Source: Kibdelosporangium sp. MJ126-NF4 (lineage in GTDB: Bacteria > Actinomycetota > Actinomycetes > Mycobacteriales > Pseudonocardiaceae). Taken from it: a DNA stretch of 64,000 nt. Of this stretch, positions 53,209 through 58,843 are shown one piece after another; within the stretch, counting starts at the first letter, position 1, and each line of letters starts with the position of its first letter. Location of the stretch: the NCBI RefSeq assembly GCF_000826545.1, contig NZ_CDME01000016.1, forward strand, positions 124,001 through 188,000. The letters are read 5' to 3'. The position numbers were made by a program, and so were the translations under genes. The notes below the pieces were generated by a model. It saw only the letters and a list, made by a program, of their open reading frames with translations, ran no database searches and was not told the DNA's origin.

Positions 53209-53574
53209 GCCCCTTCGGTCACGCCGACATGAACAGCAGCCGTCCACTATGGATGGTTGCGGTCAAGGGATTCCGAAGAGCCCTTTACCTTCCGCCCGTC
53301 CACAAGAGACACACGCACGGACGCGACGCAGTCGGGTGCCCGGCGCCGCAACGGCGAAATTTGTCACATGATGAGTGCTTTCAGGTGCCCGGTCATCGAT
53401 CCCGGAGCGACGACGGAATCTGTGTGTGCCCATGGTCACTCGACGGCGGGCAGGTGCGGTTGCCCACTGGAATGATTGCCGGATCGGATGCGCTTGTTTC
53501 ACTCATCTCGGTGAACGCCTGTGTCCCCGGCAGGGAGCAGCCAGGCGTTTCGCCGCACTGGCAGGGAGCTGCGG
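53209..53574. other. 366-bp spacer between phosphatase and hydrolase genes
   Basis: A divergent intergenic region that must hold the promoters of both genes. I see no PHO-box-like direct repeat, tRNA or credible small ORF with a ribosome site. Confidence 0.5.
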
Positions 53575-54504
53575 ATGCGGGAGTACCGACCAGGCGGCCA
53601 GGGGTTTCGGGCCGCGTTGATCCGGGGGCTCTGCCGGGTTTTCGTGTGGCCCACACTGGCGTGGTGGCCGCTGCGCGGTCCGCTGGCCACGTTGATCCCC
53701 CTGGTGAACCTCGTCATGTCGGTGACACCTCGGCTGCGCTCCACCCGAATGGAACGGGTCGTCGGCGCGAGTTGGCGGGGCGAGTTGGTACGACCGCACG
53801 GTCCCGCGACCAGGGCGGGCGCCCTGCTGTACCTGCATGGCGGAGCCTTCGTCTTCTGCGGGCTGGCCACCCACCGGCGCATTGTGGAGCGCCTGGCCCT
53901 GCGCACGGGTCTGCCCGTGCTGTCAGTCGAATACCGCCAACTCCCGCGAGCACGCCTTGACGAGTCGCTCGCCGATGTGATCGACGCGTTCCGTTGGCTG
54001 GTGGACAACGGGCACGACGGCTCAATCGTCTGCGTCGGCGACTCGGCCGGTGGCCACCTCGCCTTCGCGCTGGCACTCGCGGCCGAGAAAGCCGGGGTGT
54101 CCGGGCCCGCTGGTGTGGTCGGCCTGTCGCCGTGGCTGGATTTCGACAGCCGGACCAAACAAGCCCACCCGAACTCCCGCAAGGACGTGTTCATCCCGAC
54201 CAGGCGGCTGTCCCGGGTGGCCCGGCTGTGCACAGGAACACAGGACCGGGACATCGATCCGCTCCGATCCCCGGTCAACGGCACCCTGGGCTGCCTGCCC
54301 CCGGTACTCCTGCTGTGCGCGGAGGACGAAGTCCTGCGCTGCGACGCGGAACTCATGGCCGAACGGCTCGAAGCCGCCGACGTCGAGTACAAAATCCAGA
54401 TCTGGCAAGGACAAGTCCACGCCTTCCCCGTCCTCGGCCACTTCCTCCCGGAAAGCCGTGCCGCCATCGACGAGATCGCCCACTTCGTCGACGACGTCGT
54501 CTGA
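53575..54504 (+). CDS. Alpha/beta hydrolase, hormone-sensitive-lipase family
   Basis: A 309-residue esterase/acetylhydrolase. It has oxyanion LYLHGGAFVF (about 86-95), the nucleophile in GDSAGGH (Ser157), the acid in LLCAEDEVL and the His in VHAFPVLGHF. ATG 53575 has GGGAG at 8-nt spacing; longer in-frame starts (53521) lack one. Relatives deacetylate esters or lipids; the substrate is unknown. The gene is convergent with the M48 peptidase gene. Confidence 0.87.
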   Translation: MREYRPGGQGFRAALIRGLCRVFVWPTLAWWPLRGPLATLIPLVNLVMSVTPRLRSTRMERVVGASWRGELVRPHGPATRAGALLYLHGGAFVFCGLATHRRIVERLALRTGLPVLSVEYRQLPRARLDESLADVIDAFRWLVDNGHDGSIVCVGDSAGGHLAFALALAAEKAGVSGPAGVVGLSPWLDFDSRTKQAHPNSRKDVFIPTRRLSRVARLCTGTQDRDIDPLRSPVNGTLGCLPPVLLLCAEDEVLRCDAELMAERLEAADVEYKIQIWQGQVHAFPVLGHFLPESRAAIDEIAHFVDDVV

Positions 54505-54819
54505 GTCAGGCCGTGATGTTCGTGCGGAGCCGGACAGTTTCACATGTCTGGTCGATGAGAGTCTGCCCCGGCCGGAGGCCGGAGTCGGGCTTCCGTGGGG
54601 CGGTTCCTGGCGTCGCCGCCGGAATGCCGCGAACACTGGAGCCGCCCACGAGCAGCCTGACCAAACCGGCCAACCCAGGTGGTCACAGCACCAGCTGGGC
54701 GTCAGCCGGTGAGGTTCGCCTGGCATCGTGCTCAGCGGCACCGACCGGGCCTGCAGTTTCTCGTCAGCACCGCAAGCCACCATGGCTACGAGTCGTTCCT
54801 GGGAACCCGTCAATCATTG
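54505..54819. other. 315-bp spacer containing repeat copy 2
   Basis: A convergent intergenic stretch. It holds the second 88-bp dispersed repeat at 54552-54639. I see no gene or clear terminator in the remainder. From here the base composition falls towards that of the M48 gene. Confidence 0.6.
54552..54639. repeat. 88-bp dispersed repeat, copy 2
   Basis: Same orientation as 12977-13064, 80 of 88 identical and ungapped. The similarity stops sharply at both ends, which defines the unit. The CCGGCC-GGA-GGCCGG hairpin is intact. Confidence 0.8.
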
Positions 54820-57612
54820 TTAGCCAGTGCGACTGATCCGTTTCAGCTTAGTGGTGTAGAGTGCCGACCTCAGCTCCAGCTGATCTCGTGAACATGAGAA
54901 TTCTTCTGCAGTGGTGCCCACTATGAGCGGCCGCGTGGAACCAATCTTTTTGTCAACCCGCGATGTTTTGGAACCATTAGATATGGGATTCTCATAGAGG
55001 ATCAGGTTGCTGACAACCTGGTAGCTGCGCCGCAAGCTTCCCGTATATCTAATGGCCACCACGGCCCCGTTGTGTAGGCCACTTTCTGTATTGCCGCTCC
55101 CGAAATCCAGGACAACGAGTCCATTGTCACGAAATCGGTGGAGTCCGCCTGATCGGGACAATCCGACCGTTATTCCGTTATCTAGTGTCAGAGTTCGATT
55201 ATAGGCAGTCTCGACCCATGTGCCGATAAGGCAGTCAGCGGGTGTCTCCTCATAGGTGAACGTGATCCACCGGGACTGGTTGGCGAATGCCGCGGCGAGA
55301 ATGACCGCGATCAGGGTAATCGCCGTTGCAGTGGAGCCGACGCGGAGGCGCAAGCCAGGTTGCTGGACGTCCACCTCGATCGACTGGTCGCCGGAAGCTT
55401 GGGGCTCGCGGTGTGAGCCCTTGGTTCCTGAGCGGAAAATGGCGGCAACTGCCGTGCCGAGAATTGTCACGGGAACTGCAGCGAGAATGCTGAACACGAT
55501 TGCCGCGTGCCAGAATTCGGTGGCAGTCACGAAAGGGAGCGGTTTTCCACACCGGGACACCCATGCTTCGAGCAATGCCATGCAGTTTCCAGGTTGAGCA
55601 CCTAGCCATACAACGCCAGTGGCCAGCGTTCCGGAAACGAACAACGCCAAGAGGCTCAGGATCACCCGGAGCTGTCTAAGCACGATCATGGCCGTGGCCG
55701 CCGTCAGCGCGCCGATTAAGATTGTGATCGCGATGTACGCGTCCATGTTAGTCGTTAACCAAGCCGTAAGTTGAGGCCTGTGGACGACGGGATCGTACGC
55801 CGACTTAACCGCAAACAGTTCTACCAAGAACGCGAAAAGACAGCATGTTCCGCCGGTCACTCCGATGAGTAACGCACGTTTGGTATCTGTTCTTAGGCTG
55901 ACGTGTGCGTGAGCGCCTCTGAACCGTGTGGCTCTTCTGATTGCGACAATCGGTACGAGCCACAACAGAATTATTCCGACGAGCACCCAGGGGACGAAGG
56001 AGCTGGCAACGAGAAACAGATGCTGCTTCGGCCACAAGGTAAGCTGCTCAATCCACTTCAGCAGTACACTATGCCCGCTCGCCAATCCCTCTGGGTGCGG
56101 TGTCGCAATGCGGCTTTCCTTGCCGAGCGCCGCTGCAACGCTTTGGCTGACATCTGAACGCAGTGTCAGCCAAACCTCCAGCCAAGGAGTGCATGTGATG
56201 ACGACCGCTGTCACGAAGGCAAGTACAGTCCTGCTCCGACTTGTTCTGGTCGCGTAGAGTACACCCGAGACGGCGGAACGAGCCCAGATCACCAGCAAGA
56301 GGCCACCAATGAGTAGCGGGGCTATTGTGGTGAGTACAAAAGCAGGCTCGAAGGAGTTACTATGCCCGTATTGACTGAATAGTACCCACGGGCCGGCTGC
56401 AGTATTGACAAGAGCGGTTGCTTCGCCGACCAAGAAGCCGGCTATGAGGAGCAGTGGATATAGCAGTATGCGTAGTGGCGGTCGATATTGAGGCGAGCTG
56501 ACCGCGGACCGCCAAACGGCGAGGACCAAGGTCGTAGCGCCACCGGCTGCTACGATCAGTACGACTAGGAGATTTGCGAGGCCAGAAAGCGTTGGCAAGA
56601 GCATCTGCAACAGCAAGAAGCCGTTCTCCATGAACAACGCGGCAACCATGCCTACAGCAAACAGCTCCCACAGTCGCGGCTGAGACAAGAGAGCGGGCGT
56701 GTTCATGACTTCCACCCGCCGGGCGGGACGCGGATGGTGACCCCAACGTCCGCGAATCGACAACTGATGCACGGCGGCAGGTTTGGCGTTGGTAAAATAG
56801 TCTCGCAAGGCCATGCCTGATGTGGGTTTTTCCCATCGGTCTACGCGAGCGTCGGCGTAATGCTCACGGACCCTCAGCAGAGCGTTTCGCGTTAGTAATA
56901 TGAGTGTGGTCAGTGCAAGCAACGACGCCGAGACCCTTAATGTTCCCCACCAGTCCAGATGCCAGGTTTGTGCATCTACCGACAATCGGCTTGCGATGGC
57001 CACTGTGAGCATCGACGGGATGGCGATCACAGCAAATGACCACCAGAGCCCCACCGTAAGATAGGTGATGTCGACGTCTCGATTCCGCAGGTGGGCCAGT
57101 TCGTGAAGCACAACAGCCCGAAATGTGGCTGGTTTGGTATGCGAGAGCACAACCAGTCCAGCGTCAAGCTTTACGAAGCGATGCCGGACATGGCCGAAGG
57201 TCATTGCCGTCGTAGTTGTGGTGGCGTACGGCGCGAGCATGAACGTCGGTGGGGTTACATGGATCTCCCCGCATAGACCATGGAGTGCCTCGACCAGCTC
57301 CGGATAGTTTGCTTCGGTCAGCTTCTTAAGAGCACCTCGTCGCTTGATCATCGACGGATAAAGCCAGTAGATCGAGAAGGTCACGATCCCGAGGGAACCG
57401 ATTCCACATGCGATCCACTCCGCCTCATTCAAACCGATGATCGGTAGCATGTAGTGAAGCGTGTAGAATACTGTGGAACTACTGGCGAGCACTGCGGCCA
57501 TGAGAAGCACGAATAGCGTGGTGGTGCCAGACGGGATACTGTGCCGGTCTTCATTAGAAGTGTCTACGGTCGTGACTTCGGTTGGACCGTATTGCGTCGT
57601 GCCTGAGCTCAA
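54820..57612 (-). CDS. Giant multi-TM M48-type metallopeptidase with C-terminal beta domain
   Basis: A 930-residue protein. Two TM helices (about 31-60 and 65-86) precede an M48 catalytic region with zinc motif HELAH (His170, Glu171, His174) and the third ligand in REHYADARVD (Glu250). About ten more TM helices follow (360-740). The C-terminal 150 residues after a last TM are extracytoplasmic and beta-rich (CLIGTWVETAYN...), resembling a lipocalin-like sensor. Its TTG start overlaps the companion stop (TTGA). G+C is visibly lower than in neighbours, suggesting transfer. Typical M48 proteases have 250-450 residues, so this is an unusual architecture. Confidence 0.82.
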   Translation of the reverse strand: MSSGTTQYGPTEVTTVDTSNEDRHSIPSGTTTLFVLLMAAVLASSSTVFYTLHYMLPIIGLNEAEWIACGIGSLGIVTFSIYWLYPSMIKRRGALKKLTEANYPELVEALHGLCGEIHVTPPTFMLAPYATTTTTAMTFGHVRHRFVKLDAGLVVLSHTKPATFRAVVLHELAHLRNRDVDITYLTVGLWWSFAVIAIPSMLTVAIASRLSVDAQTWHLDWWGTLRVSASLLALTTLILLTRNALLRVREHYADARVDRWEKPTSGMALRDYFTNAKPAAVHQLSIRGRWGHHPRPARRVEVMNTPALLSQPRLWELFAVGMVAALFMENGFLLLQMLLPTLSGLANLLVVLIVAAGGATTLVLAVWRSAVSSPQYRPPLRILLYPLLLIAGFLVGEATALVNTAAGPWVLFSQYGHSNSFEPAFVLTTIAPLLIGGLLLVIWARSAVSGVLYATRTSRSRTVLAFVTAVVITCTPWLEVWLTLRSDVSQSVAAALGKESRIATPHPEGLASGHSVLLKWIEQLTLWPKQHLFLVASSFVPWVLVGIILLWLVPIVAIRRATRFRGAHAHVSLRTDTKRALLIGVTGGTCCLFAFLVELFAVKSAYDPVVHRPQLTAWLTTNMDAYIAITILIGALTAATAMIVLRQLRVILSLLALFVSGTLATGVVWLGAQPGNCMALLEAWVSRCGKPLPFVTATEFWHAAIVFSILAAVPVTILGTAVAAIFRSGTKGSHREPQASGDQSIEVDVQQPGLRLRVGSTATAITLIAVILAAAFANQSRWITFTYEETPADCLIGTWVETAYNRTLTLDNGITVGLSRSGGLHRFRDNGLVVLDFGSGNTESGLHNGAVVAIRYTGSLRRSYQVVSNLILYENPISNGSKTSRVDKKIGSTRPLIVGTTAEEFSCSRDQLELRSALYTTKLKRISRTG

Positions 57613-58151
57613 CGGTCGCCCGCTTCTCGTGACAGGTCGCCTTCCGGAGGCCGTTCTTCAGCATGTTCAGAATTGCCACCGGCGACGGCGTCCGCGATTC
57701 GCTGGGCGATGTCTTCAGGTTTACCTTTATCGGCCACGTACTCAATGATTATTCGGCGCACTTCTTTTTGGTCTTCCGGAGGCAGATCCAGGAGCGGCGC
57801 AGTCGTGTCAACCGGATGACCTTCAGGACGCCGAAATAGCTTTCGCACTGCGTCGGTAGTTGTTTTACTCCAGCGCGCGACGCCTGGCCGTACGTGTTTC
57901 TTGACCAGATGGAGGACGACGTCGGAAGCAACTGCTAATGCAACCGGCGTGAGAACCTCACTGATTTCGCTCAGGCCGATCCCCAATCGATCGTCGTTTC
58001 GCGAATCACCTTTGAGTGAGCGTTTTGGATCAGCGAAATATGAGTCGCTCAGCAACTGGAAGAGCCGGAGTTCTTCCGGCGCTACTCGCGTTACGATATG
58101 AAGCGCGAAGTCCTGGACCAGATCCTGGTCAATGTCACTGGTGTCGCTCAA
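57609..58151 (-). CDS. Unknown protein coupled to the M48 peptidase
   Basis: A 180-residue soluble, acidic protein. An N-terminal region (about 1-50) is followed by a weakly hydrophobic helix (about 67-88, TPVALAVASDVVLHLVKKHVR), a basic segment (WSKTTTDAVRKLFRRPEGH) and a helix-rich tail (PPEDQKEVRRIIIEYVADKGKPEDIAQRIADAVAGG). I recognise no family. Its stop overlaps the M48 start, so both are made together and likely interact. It may be an adaptor, substrate or regulator. It shares the low G+C of the peptidase gene. Confidence 0.7.
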   Translation of the reverse strand: MSDTSDIDQDLVQDFALHIVTRVAPEELRLFQLLSDSYFADPKRSLKGDSRNDDRLGIGLSEISEVLTPVALAVASDVVLHLVKKHVRPGVARWSKTTTDAVRKLFRRPEGHPVDTTAPLLDLPPEDQKEVRRIIIEYVADKGKPEDIAQRIADAVAGGNSEHAEERPPEGDLSREAGDR

Positions 58152-58843
58152 CCTGCACCCCTCGCATCAGGAACATAACGGCAATGGCGAACGATAGAGG
58201 GCGGCCTGGGTTCGTACTGAGCCGAACGCCCAGATCAGGGCCTGGGATGTATCGCGGCCTCGCCCTGGGCACGCCTCAAGAAGATTGTCGATGCACGTAG
58301 TTCGGTACCCACACGGTGTGCGTTACCGATGTCGACTAACACTTCCTACAGACCACTCGAATGGATGATGTCCACCCCATCATCGGAGGTCTCGCAGCAG
58401 CTCTGGTTAGGTGAGATTTCGACAGAGCCCTCTCATCACATGCTGCGGAGCACGTGTTGAGGTGAGTTCGTGTTACTGCGACCGGAGTGGATTGCTGATG
58501 CTGCGCTCAAGCCCATCCCGGGCTGCTCGTCCTGACGGCGCACCGATCCACATCATTCTGGACAACCTCTCCGCGCACCGCGGCGCCACGATCCGCACCT
58601 GGGCAGCCTCGCAACAAGGTCACACTGTGCTTCACTCCGACCTATTTCTTCCAGCGGACCGCACCCCACAGCGTGTCGTCCCCGACGGAGTAGCAACCGT
58701 GGGACTGCCGGACACCATGCAGTTCGTGATAGCTCGCCGGTAACCGGTCCGGGTGGCCCTTTGCGAGTCCAGCCGGGCCCGTGAGGTCGAGCTTGGTGTC
58801 CCGGTCGGGATCGTTGGTCTCCAGGTCTTCGTCCGCCCGGAGG
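58152..58843. other. 692-bp degenerate region upstream of the M48 pair
   Basis: It contains an IS630-family transposase fragment (58540-58645) and, on the minus strand at about 58642-58840, an open stretch ending ASYHELHGVRQSHGCYSVGDD...VRWKK, possibly the 3' remnant of an unidentified gene. The promoter of the companion/M48 genes should lie at 58152-58300. Nothing else is recognisable. Confidence 0.5.
58540..58645 (+). pseudogene. IS630-family transposase remnant, frameshifted
   Basis: APIHIILDNLSAHRGATIRTWA is the second DDE block of IS630-type transposases. The expected continuation LCFTPTY appears at 58625-58645, but in a different frame, so a small indel lies near 58620. Homology stops after TPTY. 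No start, third catalytic acid or inverted repeats remain. Confidence 0.8.

Follow-up and report, generated by a model that had tools for sequence, protein, structure and literature searches.

A widespread two-gene unit of a polytopic M48 metallopeptidase and a helical companion protein in Kibdelosporangium sp. MJ126-NF4

A stretch of 64,000 nucleotides of Kibdelosporangium sp. MJ126-NF4 (contig NZ_CDME01000016.1, positions 124,001 to 188,000; hereafter the window) was analysed for a gene encoding a large membrane metallopeptidase of family M48 and for the small gene that directly precedes it, whose product is referred to here as the companion. Protease and companion constitute a conserved, closely spaced two-gene unit and not a local accident, and the window pair represents a single copy of a bacterial two-gene system that is widespread. 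Both open reading frames (ORFs) and their TTGA overlap were present as claimed in a preliminary description made from the sequence alone, and their positions are detailed in Table 1. The database entry for the window protease (P0003) comprises 876 amino acids (aa) from a start at Met55, and thus lacks the first transmembrane (TM) helix and part of the conserved N-terminus; the family alignment favours the longer form of 930 aa.

Table 1. Position of the features in the window.
Feature	Position	Strand	Basis or details
Polytopic M48-family metallopeptidase, 930 aa, TTG start	54820..57612	-	ORF, Pfam, alignment, hydropathy, AlphaFold2
Companion, 180 aa, all-helical, without known family	57609..58151	-	
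Overlap of the companion stop with the protease start, TTGA, 4 nt	57609..57612	-	
HELAH zinc-binding/catalytic motif	57091..57105	-	Residues 170-174
EHYAD motif	56851..56865	-	Residues 250-254; includes D254 and the third zinc ligand, E250
15-TM region	55282..57528	-	Residues 29-777; hydropathy, lysine plus arginine distribution, AlphaFold2 helices
Outer C-terminal lipocalin-like beta-barrel	54832..55251	-	Residues 788-927, with Cys794 and Cys907
5549-bp stretch absent from genome G282	53295..58843	.	blastn of locus L119 against the window
Alpha/beta hydrolase	53521..54504	+	Abhydrolase_3, E 1.5e-48; GC 67.5%
ORF with DDE_3 transposase similarity, near the edge of the stretch	58411..58743	+	PF13358, 20.9 bits (cut-off 28.6)

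Conservation and distribution of the pair

The protease alignment was searched against one genome per species and the best 80 of 81 candidates were kept, giving 81 protease loci with the window included, in which adjacency was judged with one profile per protein. The companion adjoined the protease in 72 of the 81, or in 72/77 after removal of four short, unpaired M48 proteins of 302–532 aa (L073, L075, L078 and L080) from Halorussus and a proteobacterial metagenome-assembled genome (MAG). Among the other unpaired loci, L003, L027 and L058 had no companion, and in L068 and L074 both genes were found with the distance rule unmet. From the companion side, 60 genomes of the family of Lentzea cavernae (G002), presumably Pseudonocardiaceae, were sampled, the centre genome having been chosen as a carrier of the pair. 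They yielded 25 companion matches (E ≤ 0.001) in 19 genomes and, with three weak ones (E > 1e-5) dropped, 22 matches in 17 genomes. The protease adjoined 19 of these 22, namely 18 of 21 inspected loci (one on the opposite strand) and L002; the matches without an adjacent protease were L123, L127 and L140.

Over all loci examined, 103/122 were paired, the 41 loci beyond the first 81 coming from companion matches (12 + 21 + 4) and from ten plasmid records (4). The remainder comprised nine companion-side and ten protease-side misses, two of the latter (L095 and L105) adjoining a divergent gluzincin, which leaves eight true orphans. The two genes therefore co-occur as a unit, as the preliminary description had proposed; its term "obligate" for the partner is slightly too strong for a conserved pair of which unpaired copies of either gene exist.

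The arrangement is also conserved, with the companion followed by the protease on one strand in 100 of the 103 pairs. In 90 of those 100 pairs no more than 20 nt separated the companion stop from the nearest possible protease start, and an overlap of 4 nt was possible in 50 of the 100. Distances among proteases and among companions were correlated (r=0.53 for 101 pairs, against a maximum of 0.15 in 500 shuffles, shared ancestry being uncorrected). Additionally, ten genomes that hold two pairs each were selected by hand; in eight of them the companions had more nearest neighbours in common with their own protease than with the other, and in two (G214 and G005) the numbers were equal. No third conserved gene was detected among neighbour gene calls of at least 90 aa passing a filter on GC at third codon positions (GC3), which low-GC genes would escape. 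Two clusters (46 and 39 loci) lying antisense at or near the pair look like shadow ORFs, and the next largest cluster covered 9/77 loci.

Three loci showed other arrangements. Lentzea waywayandensis (G003) carries a protease alone (L003) and the single companion detected in it elsewhere, without a protease (L097), a possible unlinked pair. In Actinoallomurus purpureus (G004; L105:2857-4547) a weak companion (E 1.2e-7) overlaps a gluzincin of 398 aa, which matches M48 and M56 below cut-off only and may represent a minimal form. In Catellatospora tritici a second companion-like ORF (E 1.2e-19) is located just downstream of the protease (L042:8769-9248, forward strand).

The pair is known from Actinomycetota, a Chloroflexota MAG and Caballeronia plasmids. 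Strong companion matches (E ≤ 1e-10) were obtained in 17/60 genomes of the Lentzea cavernae family and in 13/61 of the family of Streptomyces nigrescens (G007; 17/61 at E ≤ 0.001), in which neighbours were looked at in G007 and G192. A thin phylum-wide sample, for which up to 14 candidates were scored in each genome, gave the companion in 8/246 genomes (E ≤ 0.001), four of them strong, and the phylum of the Chloroflexales MAG gave 8/151 (E ≤ 0.001), of which two were strong, one being the centre genome. Some genomes hold several copies of the pair, with differing outer tails. Ten plasmid records (seven Streptomyces, three Caballeronia) matched the protease, none over 80% of its length, and in all four inspected, two of them from Caballeronia, a companion homologue was directly upstream (E 9e-36 to 1e-44). 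No phage record matched the window protease. In plasmid p1 of Caballeronia grimmiae (L146:4172-6962) the pair adjoins the type VI secretion genes VgrG, Hcp and TssE.

Organization of the two proteins

The Pfam profile Peptidase_M48 matched the window protease with 21.8 bits (cut-off 20.3). Residues H170, E171, H174, E250 and D254 were invariant across 26 aligned sequences, the window copy included, and HExxH together with RExxAD was kept in one frame in 103/103 paired proteases when whole open frames were considered (81/103 with fixed spacing, 98/103 when limited to the domain). By profile and motifs the window protease is thus a member of M48, and zinc-dependent proteolysis is predicted for it. 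It has a catalytic core of the HtpX/ZMPSTE24 type according to NCBIfam and to structure comparison with VIA-align, on which the structural likenesses of the protease rest, Foldseek itself returning nothing at E ≤ 0.001. The HtpX equivalog models of NCBIfam reached at best 26.6 bits (cut-off 341). No Pfam M56 match was obtained for the window protease and the NCBIfam BlaR1 model scored 12.1 bits (cut-off 400); some relatives match M56 below cut-off, such as L036 (23.2 bits, cut-off 31). The remark that M48 enzymes are usually far smaller has to be qualified, as large M48 proteins form a family with at least 120 homologues of 512–1174 aa, in a search that admitted only 0.55–1.75 times the query length.

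Hydropathy gave 15 TM helices. With the N-terminus taken as inside, 48 lysine plus arginine residues fell in the eight inner segments (22 once the two long catalytic segments were excluded) versus 10 in the seven outer loops, a count that excludes the outer C-terminal domain and its 19 such residues. On this distribution, the zinc motifs are predicted to be cytoplasmic and the C-terminus to lie outside. In the AlphaFold2 model (pLDDT 81.5) residues 797-927 consisted of strands alone. The outer part, of about 140 residues, resembles lipocalins and sensor barrels of the ToxS/VtrA-VtrC type in fold (VIA-align), with putative ligand binding, and a disulfide would join Cys794 and Cys907. No class-D beta-lactamase-like (penicillin-binding) sensor domain was found in it by Pfam. 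Motifs, hydropathy and model agree with the two zinc motifs, the more than ten TM helices and the beta-rich outer C-terminal domain reported earlier.

The outer tail is, from sequence comparison, the variable part of the protease family, exchanged or missing among its members. A census of 102 paired proteases, leaving out one with a masked sequence, gave 47 without a tail of at least 60 aa past the last predicted TM helix, 30 in one sequence-linked group that looks helical by eye, 10 in the barrel group, including the window copy, and 15 that were singletons or belonged to small groups. The hydropathy-based cut is rough, L014 and L021 being scored as tail-less though their C-termini resemble tailed ones.

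The window companion had no match in Pfam or in PADLOC-DB 2.0.0 (E ≤ 1 in both) and one in NCBIfam, far below cut-off, so that none of the three databases relates it to a housekeeping family. On its own it retrieved two homologues in a protein search, and with its family alignment 160. Each Pfam family was matched by at most two of 71 members (E ≤ 0.1); BlaI was not among the Pfam matches of the family, in a profile comparison made by Pfam only and not by fold. No DNA-binding domain is recognisable in the companion. Residue E26 is conserved in 71/71, and A23, P24, G58 and A152 in 93–99%. A 19-residue stretch with a mean hydropathy above 1.6 occurs in 62/71 companions; the protein may thus not be plainly cytoplasmic, as the preliminary description had it. 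No signal peptide was seen by eye, no predictor being used. Two resemblances were rejected. One, to EF-Ts, concerns some 33 residues that form a helical hairpin (profile E 0.27; Foldseek E 3.2, prob 0.66) and is too short and weak. A match to VMAP-M2 was taken as chance, because it was found in 1/71 companions (E 7e-4) and in a check of 15 genomes the only match seen to overlap a known companion was below cut-off (18.6 versus 27.7 bits).

Relation to known systems and possible role

The BlaR1 and MecR1 proteins are the textbook membrane metalloproteases that sense outside and cut inside. As in these, a cytoplasmic gluzincin, a polytopic membrane part and an outer C-terminal domain are predicted in one chain of the window protease. 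On the other hand, it belongs to M48, with 15 predicted TM helices, and not to M56 as in BlaR1/BlaI and MecR1/MecI; its outer domain, a small beta-barrel, takes the place of the class-D beta-lactamase-like sensor; and its companion matches no Pfam family, BlaI included. It differs from HtpX, whose models span 285–338 positions, in eleven additional TM helices, the outer domain and the fixed partner, and the match to the M48 CAAX proteases ZMPSTE24/Ste24p leaves the helices past residue 305 and the outer barrel uncovered. From the NTP (nucleoside triphosphate)-dependent conflict systems (VMAP/MoxR ternary) it is set apart by the VMAP-M2 region, which was not borne out in the companion. The protease class and the type of architecture are already known, and the companion family and the fixed pairing seem to be new; a full-text search of open-licence literature gave no title or abstract on the pair. 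In Streptomyces, according to PMC13118837, an M48 cluster shares synteny with whiB7.

There is about an even chance that the pair is a two-gene transmembrane signalling module, BlaR1/BlaI-like in design and built from different parts, with the companion as substrate or regulator. A ligand or an envelope stress would be felt by the outer domain or by the TM bundle, and movement of the TM helices would open the M48 site on the cytoplasmic side. Once active, the protease would act on the companion, which would be docked on it either as a substrate or as a gatekeeper. The output would be the companion, cut or set free, acting at the membrane or via another protein; direct de-repression is perhaps not expected, because no DNA-binding domain could be recognised in the companion. 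Action of the peptidase on the companion is suggested by analogy, BlaR1 cleaving its partner directly according to a part of PMC9834060. The preliminary description had envisaged a signalling or conflict system. Signalling fits the conserved pair, the cytoplasmic gluzincin, the many TM helices and the outer barrel, and the conflict half of that proposal is unsupported.

The main rival to signalling, itself rather unlikely, is a membrane quality-control protease of the HtpX/Ste24 kind with the companion as substrate adaptor or chaperone. The HtpX/ZMPSTE24-type catalytic core agrees with it, as do the 47/102 family members lacking a tail and a large TM bundle that could hold membrane substrates. 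PMC6585502 further assigns ordinary HtpX and FtsH to the quality control of membrane proteins and reports that insertions in htpX (SCO4609) lower actinorhodin production in Streptomyces coelicolor. It is weakened mainly by the patchy occurrence of the pair, unlike that of a housekeeping enzyme (strong companions in 17/60 and 13/61 genomes), and by several kinds of outer tail that such a role does not need; the HtpX models, moreover, stay far under cut-off.

Conflict or abortive infection, in which the companion would be a latent membrane-active effector freed by the protease on infection or attack, is improbable, with no positive evidence beyond patchiness (with several copies in some genomes), mobility (plasmid copies, and a window copy in a low-GC stretch that is absent from a close relative and near a transposase-like fragment) and the hydrophobic companion segment. 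Against these stand zero PADLOC families for both proteins (E ≤ 1) and no excess of them near the pairs: 10 families among 125 of 369 neighbour proteins versus 31 among 120 of 167 control proteins, a coarse comparison that counts families rather than distinct proteins, on rough gene calls, with controls from 20 stretches of ten genomes, mostly of one family. No further gene family occurred in more than 9/77 loci except the two antisense clusters, and by Pfam no known effector domain, NTPases and nucleases included, is present in the unit; the lack of a phage record matching the window protease and the ordinary GC of the family count against this reading as well. A processing or export role, in which the companion or a peptide derived from it would be matured by the protease and then released, is very unlikely. 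A small variable partner beside a membrane protease would suit such export, and a portion of PMC7159879 gives a precedent in a zincin and a small cleaved protein beside some actinobacterial ternary systems; however, the conserved companion positions span the full length and not one short peptide, and no signal peptide was visible.

As a more tentative extension of the signalling proposal, the pairs might form an undescribed widespread class, with an M48 peptidase on a 15-TM scaffold, exchangeable outer sensors and a helical partner that is a membrane-associated effector or gate, cut on signal, and not a repressor. If true, signals from outside would have another way, in addition to BlaR1/BlaI, of leading to proteolysis inside the cell; the design of sensing outside and cutting inside would be general, and an unrecognised signalling layer would exist in antibiotic-producing bacteria.

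Origin of the window copy

The GC content is 56.5% for the protease and 56.0% for the companion, versus 67.8% for the whole window. The low GC noted earlier is thus true of the window copy and is no family trait, the mean of 100 loci being 71.6% and that of their flanks 70.4%. Horizontal transfer as a hallmark of the family was rejected, only 6/100 loci lying more than 5 GC points below their flanks. In G282 (probably Kibdelosporangium phytohabitans), the closest of 60 genomes by RarA (95% identity), the interval between a phosphatase gene and rarA measures 457 bp versus 5549 bp in the window, where the extra DNA comprises the alpha/beta hydrolase, the pair and the transposase-like fragment. 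The hydrolase within this stretch has a normal GC, so DNA may have entered this slot on more than one occasion. As for a possible operator, the region ahead of the companion gene showed no more than weak inverted repeats. The 457 bp of G282 (L119:10458-10914) are unrelated DNA, acetyltransferase-like by eye, and the same genome carries its own pair elsewhere (L120).
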